From positions 1-64,000 of the forward strand of contig CAKRHP010000006.1 of NCBI GenBank assembly GCA_934339135.1: a stretch of DNA of 64,000 bases, given 5' to 3'. This document shows positions 14,572 to 21,660 of the stretch, piece by piece. The notes under the pieces were generated by a model. It made no database searches, had not been told where the DNA came from, and saw nothing but the letters and a program-made list of their open reading frames with translations. The stretch's first letter is position 1; every line of letters begins with the position of its first letter. A program made the translations under genes and the position numbers. Source of the DNA: an uncultured Lachnospiraceae bacterium (GTDB lineage Bacteria; Bacillota; Clostridia; Lachnospirales; Lachnospiraceae).

Positions 14572-15525
14572 TTACTTTTCCTCTTTCTTCCCAAATTTCT
14601 CCACAATCTTCTCCACTTGCTGCTCCGTTATAGACATTTTAGCTGCTATCTCCGGAATTGTCATGTGAATATCACAGTACAAAATCTTAATGCCACGTTC
14701 TAATCCCTGCTCAATTCCACGTTCTATGCCCTGTTCAATTCCACGTTCTATGCCCTGCTCAATTCCACGTTCTATGCCCTGCTCAATTCCACGTTCTATG
14801 CCCTGCTCAATTCCACGTTCTATGCCCTGTTCAATTCCACGTTCTATGCCCTGTTCAATTCCAGCTTCCAAGCCCTCGTTATATTTCTCCCGATACTCCT
14901 GCTGCAGTGTCATATAATCCAGCCTCCATTTCTCATTTCGGCGGGCAGACTGCACCGCATCCTCCAGCTCTCTCGTAAATTCATCGCTTGCAGCCTGGCC
15001 ATCTATATATTCCAACAACCGTTTCATTTCCGGACTCACATCGTCCATCGTTCCTTTTGTATTTAGGATAATTTTAACGGTCTCGTCTCCAAATGTCAAC
15101 GACGGATCCTGATCACAAAGGTACTCGAAACTGTACAGATGACGCCCCTGGCCATAAGGGTCAAAGGTACAGATAAAGATGACATAGCTCTTTTTTAATT
15201 CGTTATAATCTCCACCCTTTTCCAGAATATTCAAGTCGATCATCCCCTGATAATACCTCATCCGTTTGGCCAGATTCCGTTTGATATGCACCTGCATCTC
15301 CATATCAAATACCGTGTTCTTCTCATCCTCTACATAAACGTCCAGCCGCACTCCCTTAGCTCCTGCGGACAGATCAATGGTCTTCTGACTTTCCGGGTAT
15401 TCCAGCTTGCGGATCTTGATGCCGAGGATCGTTTCCAAAAATGGTTTGCAATACTTCGGATCTCGCATAATTACCCCAAACATAAAGTCATCCTGTAACT
15501 CTAATTCTTCATATGCCTTTGCCAT
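14572..15525 (-). CDS. Rpn family recombination-promoting nuclease/putative transposase
   Basis: PD-(D/E)XK nuclease of the Rpn/PF12784 type. The nuclease core shows GVRLDVYVEDEKNTVFDMEMQV (Asp, then E-x-Q) at about residues 58-82. The C-terminal third holds seven tandem GIEQGI(L)ER units encoded by 24-bp DNA repeats, then a helical tail DIHMTIPEIAAKMSITEQQVEKIVEKFGKKEE resembling a small helix-turn-helix. GGAGG precedes the ATG. Rpn proteins cut DNA and promote RecA-independent recombination in E. coli (family knowledge). This is the only complete copy here; three broken relatives lie at 12.8, 15.8-16.4/21.0 and 21.4 kb. Confidence 0.88.
   Translation of the reverse strand: MAKAYEELELQDDFMFGVIMRDPKYCKPFLETILGIKIRKLEYPESQKTIDLSAGAKGVRLDVYVEDEKNTVFDMEMQVHIKRNLAKRMRYYQGMIDLNILEKGGDYNELKKSYVIFICTFDPYGQGRHLYSFEYLCDQDPSLTFGDETVKIILNTKGTMDDVSPEMKRLLEYIDGQAASDEFTRELEDAVQSARRNEKWRLDYMTLQQEYREKYNEGLEAGIEQGIERGIEQGIERGIEQGIERGIEQGIERGIEQGIERGIEQGIERGIEQGLERGIKILYCDIHMTIPEIAAKMSITEQQVEKIVEKFGKKEEK
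14691..14858 (-). repeat. 24-bp coding minisatellite, seven units
   Basis: Six near-identical 24-bp units (plus-strand core TTCCACGTTCTATGCCCTG) plus one variant unit encode the GIEQGIER heptad-like repeat of the Rpn-type protein. The broken relatives hold four units (15940-16035), one (around 21490) and one (around 12830). Confidence 0.9.
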
Positions 15526-15820
15526 AATGTAATACCTCCACTGTGCGATATGCTTTTTCGGAAACTTTTTCGAATTCAGACGCTTTGATTACTAATTTTG
15601 CCGTTTCCGGATCTTCTGTTGCTGATTGTGCATATCAGAATATCACGCATTGCATAGTGCTGTCTATTGACATTGTCGACAAATCAGACATAGACTTTTT
15701 TATAAAGGATTACATAATTATAAAGAGAATATAAAATCTTAATCGTGCAGTTTTTATAGATTGCAGGATGATTTTTGGCAATTCTTTACAAGAGAAAACT
15801 TTTGTTCAACACACTTAAAG
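15526..15820 (-). repeat. Rpn gene-flanking repeat, left copy
   Basis: The non-coding interval between the Rpn-type gene and the next 3' fragment is repeated almost base for base at 21066-21360. Its last 110 bases (from CATAATTATAAAGAGAA on) occur a third time at about 14466-14571. It carries the upstream region of one copy and the downstream region of the other; no gene is visible. Confidence 0.85.
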
Positions 15821-16434
15821 TTACTTTTCCTCTTTCTTCCCAAATTTCTCTACAATCTTCCCCACTTGCTGCTCCGTTATAGACATTTTGGCTGCTATCT
15901 CCGGAATCGTCATGTGAATATCACAGTACAAAATCTTAATGCCACGTTCTAATCCCTGCTCAATTCCACGTTCTATGCCCTGCTCAATTCCACGTTCTAT
16001 GCCCTGCTCAATTCCACGTTCTATGCCCTGTTCAATTCCAGCTTCCAAGCCCTCGTTATATTTCTCCCGATACTCCTGCTGTAAAGTCATATACATCTCC
16101 CTCCTTAGCCCGCAAATTTGGGGCTGCAGTCACAAATTTGCCGTGTGAAAAAATTATTTTTCACACTATCCAGCCTCCATTTGTCATTTCGGCGGGCAGA
16201 CTGCAACGCATCCTCCAGCTCTCTCGTAAACTGATCACTTGCAGCCTGACCATCTATATATTCCAACAACCGTTTCATTTCCGGACTCACATCGTCTATC
16301 GTTCCTTTTGTATTTAGGATAATTTTAACGGTCTCGTCTCCAAATATCAACGATGGATCCTGATCACACAGGTACCCGAAGCTGTGCAGGTGACGCCCCT
16401 GATCATAAGGGTCAAAGGTGCAGATAAAGATGAC
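15821..16434 (-). pseudogene. 3' part of a second Rpn-type gene, interrupted
   Basis: It matches the middle and C-terminal parts of the intact Rpn-type gene, with four 8-residue repeat units instead of seven, and is interrupted by a 75-bp insert at about 16093-16167. Similarity ends abruptly at 16434, where the four-gene nuclease module begins. The 5' end of the same gene appears to survive at 21036-21065, on the far side of that module. The part downstream of the insert forms an open frame of 91 residues with a new AAGGAGGGAG ribosome-binding site supplied by the insert. Confidence 0.8.
16093..16167. mobile_element. 75-bp palindromic insert inside the Rpn-type fragment
   Basis: It is absent from the other copies, where GTCATATA runs straight into ATCCAG. 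It contains GCAAATTTG and its complement about 18 bases apart, an AGCCC/GGGCT pair, and the near-perfect palindrome GTGTGAAAAA-ATTA-TTTTTCACAC. On the minus strand its end provides AAGGAGGGAG and ATG. No second copy was seen in the window. Confidence 0.5.
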
Positions 16435-16502
16435 ATGTGCTAATCATGTCTTATTTCATTCTGCTCTTTGAAAAAATAATAGTATTATTATCTAAAACAA
16501 AA

Positions 16503-17441
16503 TTAATCTGAAAAATAGTCAAATCCTTCAGTATCTTTTACTGTTTCTTCATAAATCTCTTTAATAAACTTTGACAATGGTCTTTTCCCAAATTCATCGG
16601 GATTACGATATCCCCCGTACAACATTCTATATAATTCGTCCTTATCTTCAAATAGTGTATCCATTTCATTAAGTATGTTCATCATATACTCTGGACCATA
16701 ATATCTTGTTTTCTTTATTATTTCCTGTACAATATCTCTGTGACCATTATATAATTCTTCTAATTTTAAACAATTCACATCATGAAGAGCTTCATTACTG
16801 GAAGATTTTATTTTAACTTTCAGCTGGCTTTCATCATTTAAATAATCAATTCCAAGAATATCATATTCGAATGTAATTTCCTGTGTTTTATCCATCAAGT
16901 AAGGATTTATTTTAAAGTCAGCATCTCCCTTGATATAATTACACGATCCACAAACCGGAATTAAATTATATAATGAAACAGCAAACATCGGAAATTTTAC
17001 TTTGGAATAAAAATGATCCAATTGCCAGGTCCCCACAATTTTCTTCACTCCCTTCCTTGTATTCACCTTCAATTTTTCAATAAAACTTCTATTACAATAT
17101 GGACAAACTCTCAACCCTGCTTGTTTATATACTATTTGTTTTGCCTCTATAGGCATTTTTTTATATAAAGTATCAACAAGATAATCGTTTTGCTTTCCTG
17201 TCGAATGAATACATTTAAATTTATTTTGAATTTTCCGAAAATCGCCTCGAGACTTTAAATCCTTCTGCAGCTCGTATATTCTTTGAGGGGATGCGCACAC
17301 AACATCCTTAAATGACATTGACAAATAATCATTGCATTTTTTATTTATATCTGAAATGTAGGCCTTACTTCTGTTCTTTATAATCTGAGCATAATATGTA
17401 TTTTCAATCAGATCATTTTTCTGATATCTCAATGAAATCAT
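16503..17441 (-). CDS. HNH endonuclease, PtuB-like
   Basis: Predicted metal-dependent DNA nuclease. A zinc-knuckle HNH core is plain at residues about 112-180: CPYCNRSF, then WQLDHFYSK (catalytic Asp-His), NLIPVCGSCN, and INPY. HNH proteins of this shape accompany SMC/Rad50-like ATPases in Septu (PtuAB) and in retron-linked PtuAB effectors (family knowledge). Its start lies within the end of the ATPase gene (29-base overlap) behind GGAGG, so the two are translated together. It is the last gene of a four-gene minus-strand operon. Cleavage target and activation are unknown. Confidence 0.85.
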   Translation of the reverse strand: MISLRYQKNDLIENTYYAQIIKNRSKAYISDINKKCNDYLSMSFKDVVCASPQRIYELQKDLKSRGDFRKIQNKFKCIHSTGKQNDYLVDTLYKKMPIEAKQIVYKQAGLRVCPYCNRSFIEKLKVNTRKGVKKIVGTWQLDHFYSKVKFPMFAVSLYNLIPVCGSCNYIKGDADFKINPYLMDKTQEITFEYDILGIDYLNDESQLKVKIKSSSNEALHDVNCLKLEELYNGHRDIVQEIIKKTRYYGPEYMMNILNEMDTLFEDKDELYRMLYGGYRNPDEFGKRPLSKFIKEIYEETVKDTEGFDYFSD

Positions 17442-19422
17442 ATTTTTCCTCCATAATCATCTTACGTCTCTTATTTAGTTCATCTATTTTTTTTTCAATC
17501 TCGGCTATCTCAACTTCTTTGTTTACTCTCCGTTTGCTTTTTAATTTTGCTTTTAATTTATTTCTTATTAAAGAATCCCCTATATAGCATATTTTTTGTT
17601 TATATTCATCATACTCCTTATCACTTACTTCCGAACGCTGATCAATTTCTGCAATAAGATTTTTTATAAAATTTAATGCAAAACTTCCCATTGACTTGTT
17701 TTCCAAATAAAAAGCATCGTCAAGAATTTCATAGATATTTGCGCCAAATGTTTCTTTATGCTCTGAATCATCTATAAAGGTACCTTCCTCCGTTTTTTTC
17801 ATATAAATAATATTGTCTCTAGGAACATCACTCAGACAAAGGGGAGAATGCGTTGTCATTATAATTTGTATGTGCTTTCCCTTATAACAACTGTTTACTA
17901 AATTAATAACATTCCATATCAAATCCCGCTGCCATGCAGGATGCATACACAAATCGATTTCATCAATACACACAATGATATTCTCTCTTGCCTGATCCTG
18001 TTTCCTTGTTACGTATTCATCTAAATTTCCAAGATAATATATCCAAGACATTAAATTCTGAAAAGCCCGTTCCCCTGATGAAAAAACCAAATTCTCAACA
18101 CGTAAATAACGTAGCAAAAAACTACCATACTTTTTTTCATTAGTATTTATTTTTTTATTTAATTTCGCTCTATTGTCAATATAAGAAATCACTTCTTTCC
18201 ATTCATCTGCTTCCGATATATTTTTCTTAGTATATTTAGGAATTTCGTTACCTGTAATATATCCCGAATTATTTTTAGGGACTACATTGTCTGCCTGTGG
18301 AATATTTTTTATAATATTTTCAAAATCCCTTATTTCCTTAATCCCCTCTTTAAAGTATTCATTATTTTCGTACTCAATGTCCTTTACTATTTCTGAATAC
18401 AAAATTTCAATTGATGAATCTTTTATCCCTTTTAATTTATTATTAAAAATATACCATTCTAATATAAGATTTGTTTTTAAAATATATATAATATCGTCCC
18501 TTGCTTTTTCTTGAGAAAAAATATTTTCCAACTCATCCGCTATTTCTTTAATATTAGATAATGTATTAATATTCCCTTCATCCATATCCATACCATTTCT
18601 CTGAGCTATTTCGTTTATATTGTCAATAATATCGAATGCTGATTGAATTTTTATTCTGATTTGAGTTCGAACCACTCCTTCATATTCTTTAATATAATCT
18701 GATTCAATTAGAAAATTATAAAACATCAAATCACATATCTGCTGAAAATCAAATGGAAATTTATTTTGTTTCAACAACCAACTATATGTCAAAAAACCAT
18801 TTTCTTCTCCTTTTATCTTTTGGGGACAAATAAATTCAAAAAAAGCATTAGATACAAATGACAATCTAGCCGGTGTTATAATTAAGTCGTCCAATGTTCC
18901 ACTCGATTGTGTTCCATTTAAATTGTCAAGACAACTGTTGGATACATATATTTTAGTGAACAAATAATAATCATCTAATCTAAGAGTCTTTTCATTCGTT
19001 ATATAAAATCTATTCTCATTTTTAATAATTCCATCTGTCACCTGCAAATCCTTTTTTAAAAGATTCGTATATAATTTTAATTCTTGTCCTTTTCTTAATA
19101 TAATTAAATTTTTAGATTCCTCATTTACTTTTTTTGTATATTCCTTATATTCCGCATCATTTGTTTCATGTAGCGAATAGCAATGTAAAGTCAGTATATT
19201 TTTTAAGAAAGTGGTTTTCCCGACTCCATTTTCACCTACCAGTACTGTTACATTTTTTATTACTTCTGAGGATAAAATATTTTTCTTTTCTTTCTTTGAT
19301 ATTTTCAATTCATATAATCCATTTTCATTTTTTTCCATTAAAATGGTAAATTCTGGTGAAAAACAAAAGCCTTGTTCCTTTATACAGTGATCCTTATTAA
19401 TCCAATAATATATAAGCTCCAT
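17413..19422 (-). CDS. SMC/Rad50-like AAA ATPase, PtuA-like
   Basis: A protein of 669 residues with an ABC/SMC-type split ATPase: Walker A G63-ENGVGKT near the N-terminus, a long mostly helical middle, the signature LVFSSGERAF, Walker B NIIVCIDEIDLCMHP, and an H-loop in IIMTTHSPLCL. No TOPRIM domain follows, unlike OLD nucleases. I start at the ATG eight bases after AAAGGAG; an upstream ATG adds nine residues and almost touches the previous stop. Coupling to an HNH nuclease supports a Septu-like sensor/regulator role (inference). The protein is longer than the PtuA proteins I know of. Confidence 0.85.
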   Translation of the reverse strand: MELIYYWINKDHCIKEQGFCFSPEFTILMEKNENGLYELKISKKEKKNILSSEVIKNVTVLVGENGVGKTTFLKNILTLHCYSLHETNDAEYKEYTKKVNEESKNLIILRKGQELKLYTNLLKKDLQVTDGIIKNENRFYITNEKTLRLDDYYLFTKIYVSNSCLDNLNGTQSSGTLDDLIITPARLSFVSNAFFEFICPQKIKGEENGFLTYSWLLKQNKFPFDFQQICDLMFYNFLIESDYIKEYEGVVRTQIRIKIQSAFDIIDNINEIAQRNGMDMDEGNINTLSNIKEIADELENIFSQEKARDDIIYILKTNLILEWYIFNNKLKGIKDSSIEILYSEIVKDIEYENNEYFKEGIKEIRDFENIIKNIPQADNVVPKNNSGYITGNEIPKYTKKNISEADEWKEVISYIDNRAKLNKKINTNEKKYGSFLLRYLRVENLVFSSGERAFQNLMSWIYYLGNLDEYVTRKQDQARENIIVCIDEIDLCMHPAWQRDLIWNVINLVNSCYKGKHIQIIMTTHSPLCLSDVPRDNIIYMKKTEEGTFIDDSEHKETFGANIYEILDDAFYLENKSMGSFALNFIKNLIAEIDQRSEVSDKEYDEYKQKICYIGDSLIRNKLKAKLKSKRRVNKEVEIAEIEKKIDELNKRRKMIMEEKYDFIEISEK

Positions 19423-19449
19423 CCCAAATTCTCCTTTTACTGATGTCAT

Positions 19450-19995
19450 CTAATCACGTCCATATTTCTTTCTGATCATTTCTATATCGGACTTTGAAGC
19501 CTCCCTAAGATTATAATCGTCCTCCTCTACACCATTCAAAAATACACATTTCAATATAAATCTAATAACTCGAAAAGATGCCATTATAAAATATATCAAA
19601 CTAGACACTTCGGCATACTTTATCATTTCCAGAATTTCAAAAAAGATGTGCGGACCATTTATTTTTATAGTCATTTTCCCCAACATCATCAAGGAAAATA
19701 TAACAACGATAAATCCAGAAAACAATGCTGTATTACAGTACTTTTGCAGCTTTTTCTTATAATATCGATTTTTTAAAATTAATTTTAAAAAATGCTCTTG
19801 TTTTATGCTATATAATAAAGCTATCACTACACCTAAAAATCCTATTAATATACTCGAAAAGCTTATAATAGCATTAACAAGTCCATCTGCACCCTGTATA
19901 ACTTCATAATCTAAATTATAAAATATAAATAAACCAATACCTGCAAATCCCACCGGATAATAATTTTCAAAAAAGGCTCCTATTCTATCACACAT
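19450..19995 (-). CDS. Four-helix membrane protein of the nuclease module
   Basis: A protein of 181 residues with four hydrophobic stretches at about 14-32, 42-64, 90-108 and 127-148, and a charged C-terminal tail. No family is recognised. It begins behind AGGAGAAG, seven bases after the DUF6731 gene, and ends directly before the ATPase gene, so it belongs to the same operon. Small membrane proteins beside defence nucleases may act as membrane-disrupting effectors or as anchors, but nothing in the sequence decides between these. Confidence 0.7.
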   Translation of the reverse strand: MCDRIGAFFENYYPVGFAGIGLFIFYNLDYEVIQGADGLVNAIISFSSILIGFLGVVIALLYSIKQEHFLKLILKNRYYKKKLQKYCNTALFSGFIVVIFSLMMLGKMTIKINGPHIFFEILEMIKYAEVSSLIYFIMASFRVIRFILKCVFLNGVEEDDYNLREASKSDIEMIRKKYGRD

Positions 19996-20002
19996 TCTTC
20001 TC

Positions 20003-20899
20003 CTATTTTATCAACTCTTTCTTATGCTGATTATATTTGATACATATTTCTTCTGACATTTTTTCAAACGAAATACTTTCTAGTCGTTCAATCCTTAAAG
20101 GAATAACATCTATAACTTTCATTGTAAATAGATCAATCGTCTCAACAGGATCTATTTCATTATATTTAACACTTAACTCTCCACCAACAACAAATCCATC
20201 TGATTCATTCATTTCTTGCAGCATCGAATTAATACTATCCTGATCCAATGAGCCTCTTCTATTACCTCTTCCCAAGGACATTGACAACGTAACGGATTTT
20301 GCATCAAACTGATTAAAATACTCAAATAATCTGTTTAAAGACGAATTTTGAGGAATTACTTTTCTTTCTCTCCTGTCAGAGGCAAATTTTAAAGTCATTT
20401 TCCTATATGTTTTCGCATTTCCAAGTTTCTCTGCCACATTTTCATCCAAAAAAGGGCGTAAGCTAATTCTATACTCACTTTCGTTCAGCAACTCTGTCAG
20501 ATAACGCTCCAATCCACTTGCGCTTAAACTATCAATATTCCTCTGGACAACAAAAATATTATTTGTTGGATCATACAAAGTTGTGATATCTTCTCCGATA
20601 TATTCATCCGCTCCCAGTCCAAATCCCTCTGCTTCCTGATCCAATGTTGCAAAAAGTGGTAATTTTGTTTGGCGCAGTCGCAAAAAATTCATATACCAAT
20701 ACTTTGTTGATTTTTCAAATAATATCTTGTCCAAACGAGCTTCTTCTTGATAATAGGAAAACTTTCTTTCCTCTAAACTCATCGCATCCGCTTTGATAAT
20801 AAGCTCCTCCAAGTTATATTCCTTTCCATTATCATCTCCGTTTTTCTTTTCTATATACACTCTGAAATATTCTACTTTAATTTTGTGTATGTATGCCAT
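20003..20899 (-). CDS. DUF6731-like protein, first gene of the nuclease module
   Basis: About 298 residues from the ATG that follows AAAGGA. The N-terminus HKIKVEYFRVYI and the overall pattern (a mixed alpha/beta protein with a central IRSL-type segment, here VVQRNIDSLSASGLERYL) fit the DUF6731 family, which has no assigned biochemical activity. It is the promoter-proximal gene of the four-gene operon with the membrane protein, ATPase and HNH nuclease. A sensing or regulatory role in the module is a guess. The assignment to DUF6731 rests on memory of family patterns. Confidence 0.6.
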   Translation of the reverse strand: MAYIHKIKVEYFRVYIEKKNGDDNGKEYNLEELIIKADAMSLEERKFSYYQEEARLDKILFEKSTKYWYMNFLRLRQTKLPLFATLDQEAEGFGLGADEYIGEDITTLYDPTNNIFVVQRNIDSLSASGLERYLTELLNESEYRISLRPFLDENVAEKLGNAKTYRKMTLKFASDRRERKVIPQNSSLNRLFEYFNQFDAKSVTLSMSLGRGNRRGSLDQDSINSMLQEMNESDGFVVGGELSVKYNEIDPVETIDLFTMKVIDVIPLRIERLESISFEKMSEEICIKYNQHKKELIK

Positions 20900-20939
20900 A
20901 ATATTATTTCCTTTCTCTTTTTGTATACATTTTTTTAAA

Positions 20940-20968
20940 ATTATAGCATTATAATACTTGTTACGCAA
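20940..20968 (-). promoter_or_regulatory. Predicted promoter of the four-gene nuclease module
   Basis: A perfect -10 TATAAT (minus strand, 20940-20945), a 17-base spacer and a weak -35 TTGCGT (20963-20968), about 35 bases before the first start codon. Confidence 0.55.
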
Positions 20969-21035
20969 GAGTTTCTTATGTATATTTTGCTTGTCATTTT
21001 GATATTAAATTGGCACCATGTACAAACGTAAGCGC

Positions 21036-21065
21036 CCAATCTAATTCTTCATATGCTTTTGCCAT
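21036..21065 (-). pseudogene. 5' end of the split Rpn-type gene
   Basis: GGAGG and ATG are followed by MAKAYEEL, the exact start of the intact Rpn-type protein. The frame then departs into unrelated sequence (WALTFVHGA...) and stops. It is the likely partner of the 3' part at 15821-16434, with the four-gene module replacing about 290 bases between them. Confidence 0.65.
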
Positions 21066-21360
21066 AATGTAATACCTCCACTCTGCGATATGCTTTTTCG
21101 GAAATGCTTTCGAATCCAGACGCTTTGATTTCTAAATTTGTCGTTTCCGGATCTTCCGTTGCTGATTGTGCATATCAGAATATCACGCATTGCACAGTGC
21201 TGTCTATTGACATTGTTGCCAAATCAGGCATAGACTTTTTTATAAGGGATTACATAATTATAAAGAGAAAATAAAATTTTAATCGTGCAGTTTTTATAGA
21301 TTGTAGGGTAATCTTTGGCAATTATTTACAAGAGAAAACTTTTGTTCAACACACTTAAAG
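21066..21360 (-). repeat. Rpn gene-flanking repeat, right copy
   Basis: Near-identical to 15526-15820, in the same orientation. It carries the upstream region of one Rpn-type gene and the downstream region of the next; no gene is visible. Confidence 0.85.
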
Positions 21361-21660
21361 TTACTTTTCCTCTTTCTTCCCAAATTTCTCCACAATCTTC
21401 TCCACTTGCTGCTCCGTTATAGACATTTTAGCTGCTATCTCCGGAATTGTCATGTGAATATCACAGTACAAAATCTTAATGCCACGTTCTAATCCCTGCT
21501 CAATTCCAGCTTCCAAGCCCTCGTTATATTTCTCCCGATACTCCTGCTGCAGTGTCATATAATCCAGCCTCCATTTCTCATTTCGGCGGGCAGACTGCAC
21601 CGCATCCTCCAGCTCTCTCGTAAATTCATCGCTTGCAGCCTGACCATCTATATATTCCAA
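21361..21660 (-). pseudogene. 3' fragment of a third Rpn-type gene
   Basis: A 99-residue open frame identical or nearly so to the C-terminal part of the intact Rpn-type protein (from EYIDGQAASDEF on), but with only one GIEQGLER unit. The nuclease domain is missing. Similarity ends exactly at 21660, where a pair of GGTAAGCGCCT inverted repeats begins. Confidence 0.8.

Follow-up and report, generated by a model that had tools for sequence, protein, structure and literature searches.

Does a run of four adjacent genes at positions 16503..20899 of a 64,000-nucleotide (nt) stretch from an uncultured Lachnospiraceae bacterium (GenBank assembly GCA_934339135.1, contig CAKRHP010000006.1; the whole stretch is called the window below) encode one new defense system, or two older ones lying side by side? 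A preliminary description made from the sequence alone had named the products as a DUF6731 protein, a four-helix membrane protein, an SMC-like ATPase and an HNH nuclease and had taken them for a single system. Open reading frames, profiles and motifs confirmed four closely spaced, intact genes, each of them on the minus strand, in an island spanning about 16438-21041 (4.6 kilobases [kb]), where no other gene was found (amino acids, aa):

20003..20899, minus strand: DUF6731 protein, 298 aa (PF20505, E = 5e-67), putative RexA-like cytosolic sensor.
19450..19995, minus strand: four-helix membrane protein, 181 aa (phrog_17119, E = 1.1e-8), putative RexB-like effector by position and topology.
17413..19422 (preferred start), minus strand: PtuA-like ABC/SMC-type ATPase, by motifs and by matches to PDC-M62A, PtuA1 and retron PtuA.
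16503..17441, minus strand: PtuB-like HNH nuclease, 312 aa, by matches to PDC-M62B and PtuB1 and by CPYC, LDHF, YNLIP and CGSC motifs.

By computation, we established the gene anatomy, the assignment to PDC-M62, kinship to RexA, the constancy of the membrane pairing, the presence of phage genes around most relatives and the fact that the block interrupts an Rpn-family gene. Two older kinds of system appear to have been joined end to end here, rather than a new four-gene system having arisen. With good confidence, we read the locus as a RexAB-type pair and a Septu-type pair in tandem, both for phage defense: a new branch of RexAB together with the known candidate PDC-M62.

The DUF6731-like protein, left unassigned in the preliminary description, can be assigned. 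The best fold match of its predicted model was RexA, by a wide margin, and the two-domain RexA fold was found both by structure search and by profile comparison with controls, the match between the DUF6731 and RexA profiles being colinear. Given the tandem reading, we consider it highly probable from these models that the DUF6731 fold is the RexA fold; the protein is probably a DNA-binding dimer. Among its relatives assigned to a taxonomic family, the closest are from Lachnospiraceae. Among the control genomes, the only one to give a signal was that of Methanocaldococcus jannaschii, with a DUF6731 match below the curated cut-off.

Our first candidate for the DUF6731-membrane pair had been Kiwa (PMC12904381), in which a four-helix KwaA accompanies a cytosolic DNA-binding KwaB; it was dropped when the structure search gave RexA. 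The sizes of the Kiwa proteins and their number of helices resemble those of the pair, but the gene order is unlike kwaA-kwaB. Neither protein had a PADLOC match of any kind at E values up to 1, and KwaB and KwaA were absent among the 50 fold matches listed. The listed fold matches do not by themselves decide against a Kiwa-like system, which the four helices of the membrane protein and its similarly sized, probably DNA-binding neighbor would suggest; we rate it very improbable, RexA being preferred by a wide margin.

The membrane protein belongs to no Pfam family. It has four hydrophobic segments, and its predicted model shows four long helices at a modest predicted local distance difference test score of 71; a simple hydropathy scan of this protein and 20 relatives counted four segments in 19 of the 21 and three in the other two. 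The basic residues of the window protein lie mainly in the middle loop and the C-terminal stretch; across the scanned proteins, they are few in the loops after segments 1 and 3 and more numerous in the middle loop, a pattern shared with RexB. For the RexB-like protein of phage Sbash, both terminal segments and the region that joins helices 2 and 3 are reported as predicted to be cytoplasmic, and two residues of that middle region as required for defense (PMC6426596).

Next, we looked into whether the two proteins keep company elsewhere. The surroundings of DUF6731 were read at 22 places outside the window (L001-L004, L007-L009, L017-L021 [the same as L028-L032], L023-L026, L044-L047, L054 and L057), and a small membrane protein directly follows it at all 22; kinship of that protein to the one in the window was shown at 21, by a 10-row profile or a leave-one-out profile, and not for L021. 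The DUF6731 gene is broken at two places, L045 and L046, which were left out of the wide DUF6731 alignments (20 of 22 places used). In L045 (6277-8550) a gene of the transposase family (408 aa; phrog_506, E = 4.1e-61) has split it and the membrane gene is retained; in L046 (7490-6559) it is split in two reading frames, with a phage endolysin nearby. The distance matrices of DUF6731 and the membrane protein were correlated (r = 0.815 over 21 pairs, with 0 of 5,000 permutations as high), which we take as evidence of a unit and not of contact, because shared descent alone yields such a correlation. Across 397 genomes of the Lachnospiraceae, DUF6731 occurred in 7 and the membrane profile in 6; five of these six matches adjoin DUF6731, the sixth is weak and partial, and the profile missed two DUF6731 genomes (G026 and G370). 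At the level of the phylum, DUF6731 occurred in 5 of 398 genomes, the center genome included.

The setting of these relatives is the territory of phage cargo genes and defense islands. Phage neighbors, tested or annotated, stand at 17 of the 22 places. Downstream of the pair, either next to it or a few genes on, lies a terminase small subunit, identified by PHROG match in L001, L002, L003, L004, L007, L024, L028, L029 and L054 and from the record annotation in Aeribacillus phage AP45 and Streptococcus phage Javan1; a terminase large subunit follows in L057, and endolysins are nearby in L008, L044, L046 and L047. The gene preceding the pair matched a phage transcriptional regulator or activator in all seven cases tested (L001, L007, L024, L025, L028, L029 and L057). 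In L020/L031, an integrase comes right after the pair and a CI-like repressor lies upstream at a distance of three genes, an arrangement close to that of lambda. Five phage records carried DUF6731, of which three were read, the other two being the RefSeq record of AP45 and a second Listeria record.

These neighborhoods would also suit a rival explanation, in which the pair consists of phage lysogeny or lysis-control genes left behind by prophage decay and came to lie close to the Septu-like genes by chance; lambda RexA is indeed reported to bias the lysis-lysogeny switch as well (PMC11077077). However, the island holds no further gene, one relative (L026) is plasmid-borne, in Niallia, with a type I restriction system next to it, and the RexAB pairs assayed in other work are described as excluding phages (PMC6426596, PMC12894663). 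We rate this explanation as improbable and retain the RexAB-type reading of the pair.

Several results weigh against that reading. Neither DUF6731 nor its partner matched the curated RexA models (PF15969/PDLC02339) or RexB models (PF15968/PDLC02340) of Pfam and PADLOC at E values up to 1, so the pair is not filed under the lambda-type models; the same models do detect lambda RexA and RexB. A narrower alignment of 20 DUF6731 sequences (A4) compared with RexA gave only P = 0.029. Superposition on RexA left a root mean square deviation of 16 to 17.5 Å, with template modeling scores of 0.39 and 0.41; a rotation of the domains might account for both. A CI-like repressor nearby, as in lambda, was seen for just one of the 22 relatives, L020 (not all others were tested). 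For the membrane protein, kinship to RexB was evaluated with HHalign, with HMMER in both directions and with PHROG, against shuffled, reversed and 17 membrane-like controls (four of which are RexB proteins themselves, leaving 13 independent). HHalign gave P = 0.19; shuffled RexB did as well as RexB itself; and with the RexB profile an unrelated membrane control reached 10.7 bits and the best family member 9.3 bits. The weak PHROG link from lambda RexB to phrog_17119 (E = 0.034) was discounted because this unrelated control outscored the members. A fold search with the membrane protein model returned no match below E = 0.02. The sequence comparisons did not find kinship to RexB, and we therefore claim likeness to RexB by position and topology only; within the tandem reading, it seems quite likely that the membrane protein would fill the RexB role.

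The pair can be set beside the described RexAB systems. It shares with lambda RexAB the RexA-type fold with its colinear profile match, the order of a sensor gene followed by a four-helix membrane gene with a similar hydropathy layout, and relatives found mostly among phage genes. It differs in that the membrane protein (181 aa, versus 144 in RexB) is not demonstrably homologous and the curated models are unmatched, that the DUF6731 pair usually lies upstream of terminase and not beside CI (L020 excepted), and that the copy in the window lies outside a phage and is tied to a nuclease pair. The RexAB-type systems of Pseudomonas putida prophage P1 and of actinophages Sbash and CarolAnn likewise combine a RexA-like fold or domain with an adjacent four-helix protein, and for the P. 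putida system, too, HHpred found no RexB relative. Those systems were tested in the laboratory and come from phages of Pseudomonas, Mycobacterium and Gordonia, whereas the pair in the window is from Bacillota and is known from sequence.

The last two genes had been likened to the PtuA and PtuB of Septu, and this held: an ABC-type ATPase with PtuA motifs and an HNH protein with PtuB motifs are encoded by adjacent genes, the arrangement also used as the effector of retron Ec78. The ATPase motifs are intact (Walker A at residue 72, SSGE signature at 457, Walker B DEID at 496 and H-loop THSP at 533), as are those of the HNH protein (CPYC at 113, LDHF at 141, YNLIP at 158 and CGSC at 164). The PADLOC candidate PDC-M62 scored far better, with its M62A ATPase (E = 9.7e-61, versus 5e-24 for PtuA1 and 3.9e-17 for AAA_21) followed by its M62B HNH protein (E = 4.9e-52, versus 3.4e-8 for PtuB1). 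The Pfam HNH match reached only E = 0.01, below the family cut-off. PtuA models matched mainly the C-terminal ATPase part; sequence matches in the Protein Data Bank were mostly to retron PtuA and PtuA, the ATPase matching retron PtuA over residues 490-636 (E = 1.4e-11). By these profile matches, the pair is assigned to PDC-M62, Septu-like: PDC-M62 models are the best for both proteins, in the same order and with overlapping genes, and the window copy differs in that the DUF6731-membrane pair lies ahead of it in one gene string. A study of Bacillus cereus is reported to have dropped 203 PDC-M62 calls that duplicated Septu calls in PADLOC output, in favor of Septu (PMC11811056). As for retrons, the type I-A PtuA model NF041760 gave 69.8 bits against a cut-off of 500, no Rfam match was found in the window at gathering scores, and the island, without any further gene, differs from retron Ec78 in having neither a retron RNA nor a reverse transcriptase. 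Of the set for which no description had been known, this half is already listed, as PDC-M62.

Are the two halves nevertheless one system? In such an integrated system, partly a subcase of the tandem reading, the RexA-like protein would be the shared sensor for the membrane effector and the ATPase-nuclease. The anatomy speaks for it. Seven nt separate the DUF6731 and membrane genes, 27 nt the membrane and ATPase genes, and the HNH gene shares 29 nt with the ATPase gene, on a single strand and in one block of uniformly low guanine-cytosine (GC) content; a purine-rich ribosome-binding stretch, judged by eye, precedes all four starts. The 27-nt gap is counted from an ATPase start at 19422: the longest frame (19449-17413) has 678 aa, and translation probably begins with MEL at 19422 (669 aa), because this start is common to its relatives and AAAGGAG precedes it. 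Near-identical public relatives exist for the DUF6731 protein (100%), the membrane protein (96%) and the ATPase (97%), their neighbors not seen. The single promoter that had been proposed for all four genes is possible, yet the scan did not single one out: 43 promoter-like matches were observed and 30.5 (standard deviation, 5.4) expected, and a match scoring 10/12 also falls within the membrane gene, ahead of the ATPase gene.

Co-occurrence speaks against an integrated system. The ATPase profile matched at none of the 22 DUF6731 places, where the sequence downstream of the membrane gene amounted to at least 4.7 kb at 21 and to 1.4 kb, holding an integrase, at L020/L031. Conversely, a search with the window ATPase at an E limit of 1e-30 gave at least one relative among the 397 genomes of the family (with two scored candidates per genome among the matches listed), and the ATPase alignment gave at least three in 386 class genomes (E limit, 1e-40; three candidates scored per genome among the matches listed). 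In all four of the genomes read, a PDC-M62B HNH gene follows the ATPase relative, and in none of the four do DUF6731 and the membrane protein stand beside it. One of the PDC-M62 loci (L067, 2454-7741) is less tidy, its PDC-M62B gene coming after what appear to be three ATPase-type frames in a row, which may represent an ATPase that was duplicated and broken. An ATPase match, in every case over less than 80% of the protein, occurred in 27 plasmid records, and the sole DUF6731 plasmid record is not among them. With the broad ATPase alignment, a contig scan gave nothing after 597 pattern matches had been checked, and a viral scan gave two partial matches (L005 and L006), outside the four PDC-M62 places and without a DUF6731 match; a tighter ATPase alignment gave no match. 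Finally, diverged DUF6731 (88%) and membrane (79%) proteins exist, whereas no full-length ATPase match falls between 97 and 53%. Because the two halves occur apart (0 of 22 DUF6731 places with the ATPase, 0 of 4 ATPase genomes with DUF6731), the four genes are not a conserved four-gene system, as had been supposed, and we consider the integrated system unlikely.

For the tandem of two pairs, we infer the functional steps, co-transcription and the effector role of the membrane protein. The first module would be a RexAB-type abortive-infection pair, in which the DUF6731 protein would sense the infecting phage, through replication or recombination intermediates or a phage protein, and would then activate its membrane partner, so that membrane damage would stop the infected cell. 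This follows the RexAB model, in which the RexA-type sensor switches on a membrane protein of four helices and the latter causes membrane damage; for the P. putida system, damage is reported to be visible with SYTOX and propidium iodide, the signal of a voltage dye being unchanged (PMC12894663). The second module would be a Septu-type pair of the PDC-M62 branch, with the ATPase controlling an HNH nuclease that may cut phage DNA or tRNA upon infection; the Septu targets reported vary between nicked DNA and tRNA-Tyr, the latter cleaved in the variable loop (PMC11555353, PMC13096335). Moved as one cargo and probably transcribed together, the modules would give two layers. The earlier idea of a sensor, a nuclease and membrane damage was a fair guess, to which we add that the first two genes are plausibly the sensor and the membrane effector. 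A stronger version, in which DUF6731 proteins are the RexA sensors of an unrecognized RexAB branch in Bacillota and their phages and one sensor here commands both the membrane effector and the Septu-type nuclease as a two-tier abortive system, is a speculative possibility that we hold tentatively.

RexAB was among the first abortive systems described, and five RexAB-like systems are counted in a 2026 paper (PMC12894663). DefenseFinder is reported to place RexAB in Proteobacteria only, its models being possibly limited according to its authors (PMC9090908). In the literature searched, with bioRxiv and most subscription journals outside its scope, we found no mention of DUF6731 and no paper that pairs the terms RexA-like or RexB-like with the word Gram-positive. 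Should DUF6731 prove to be RexA, a Pfam family lacking a function would gain one, PHROG families 10865 and 17119, unassigned in function so far, would become a testable defense pair, and RexAB would reach into genomes of Lachnospiraceae and into phages of Listeria, Streptococcus and Aeribacillus. The window would moreover present a membrane-type system and a nuclease-type one joined by nature, a test case for whether tandems are additive or wired together.

The chromosomal setting of the four-gene block is that of an insertion into an Rpn-family nuclease gene (copy B), with these features around it:

14572..15525, minus strand: intact Rpn-family gene, copy A (TIGR01784, E = 5.3e-35).
15500..16011, no strand: left copy of a direct repeat (Rpn start, intergenic stretch and Rpn end; families D2 and D4).
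15821..16437, minus strand: 3' part of Rpn copy B, broken again near 16100, from translations and repeats.
21040..21551, no strand: right copy of the direct repeat (families D2 and D4).
21042..21065, minus strand: putative first eight codons of Rpn copy B on the opposite side of the island (MAKAYEEL, as in copy A).

The direct repeats are about 92-93% identical at a spacing of 5540, and the repeat search found no inverted repeat of 40 nt or more. The eight codons at 21065-21042 are taken, from their translation, to be the start of copy B; with the rest at 16437-15821, about 105 codons are missing. The GC content is 26-36% in the island and 37-46% in the nearest flanks, the right flank dropping again to 29% by 24800. 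Given the interrupted Rpn gene, the low GC content and the flanking direct repeats, the four genes look like one cargo that moved together. Three Rpn-family copies or fragments (15525-14572, 16437-15821 and 21660-21361) carry a varying number of 24-nt repeats encoding EQGIERGI, and this gene could be a place where cargo lands.

The remainder of the window reads as ordinary chromosome. A second defense candidate adjoins the island at 14374-12926, an AAA ATPase with DUF234 (PADLOC candidate PDC-S27, E = 1.5e-55). Beside the island are also a DUF4062 protein (23139-21718) and a 246-aa tyrosine recombinase (24245-23505), which is short and possibly a remnant. Farther off, the window encodes a Cas9 of 1087 aa at 3334-71 (REC lobe, E = 1.7e-128).

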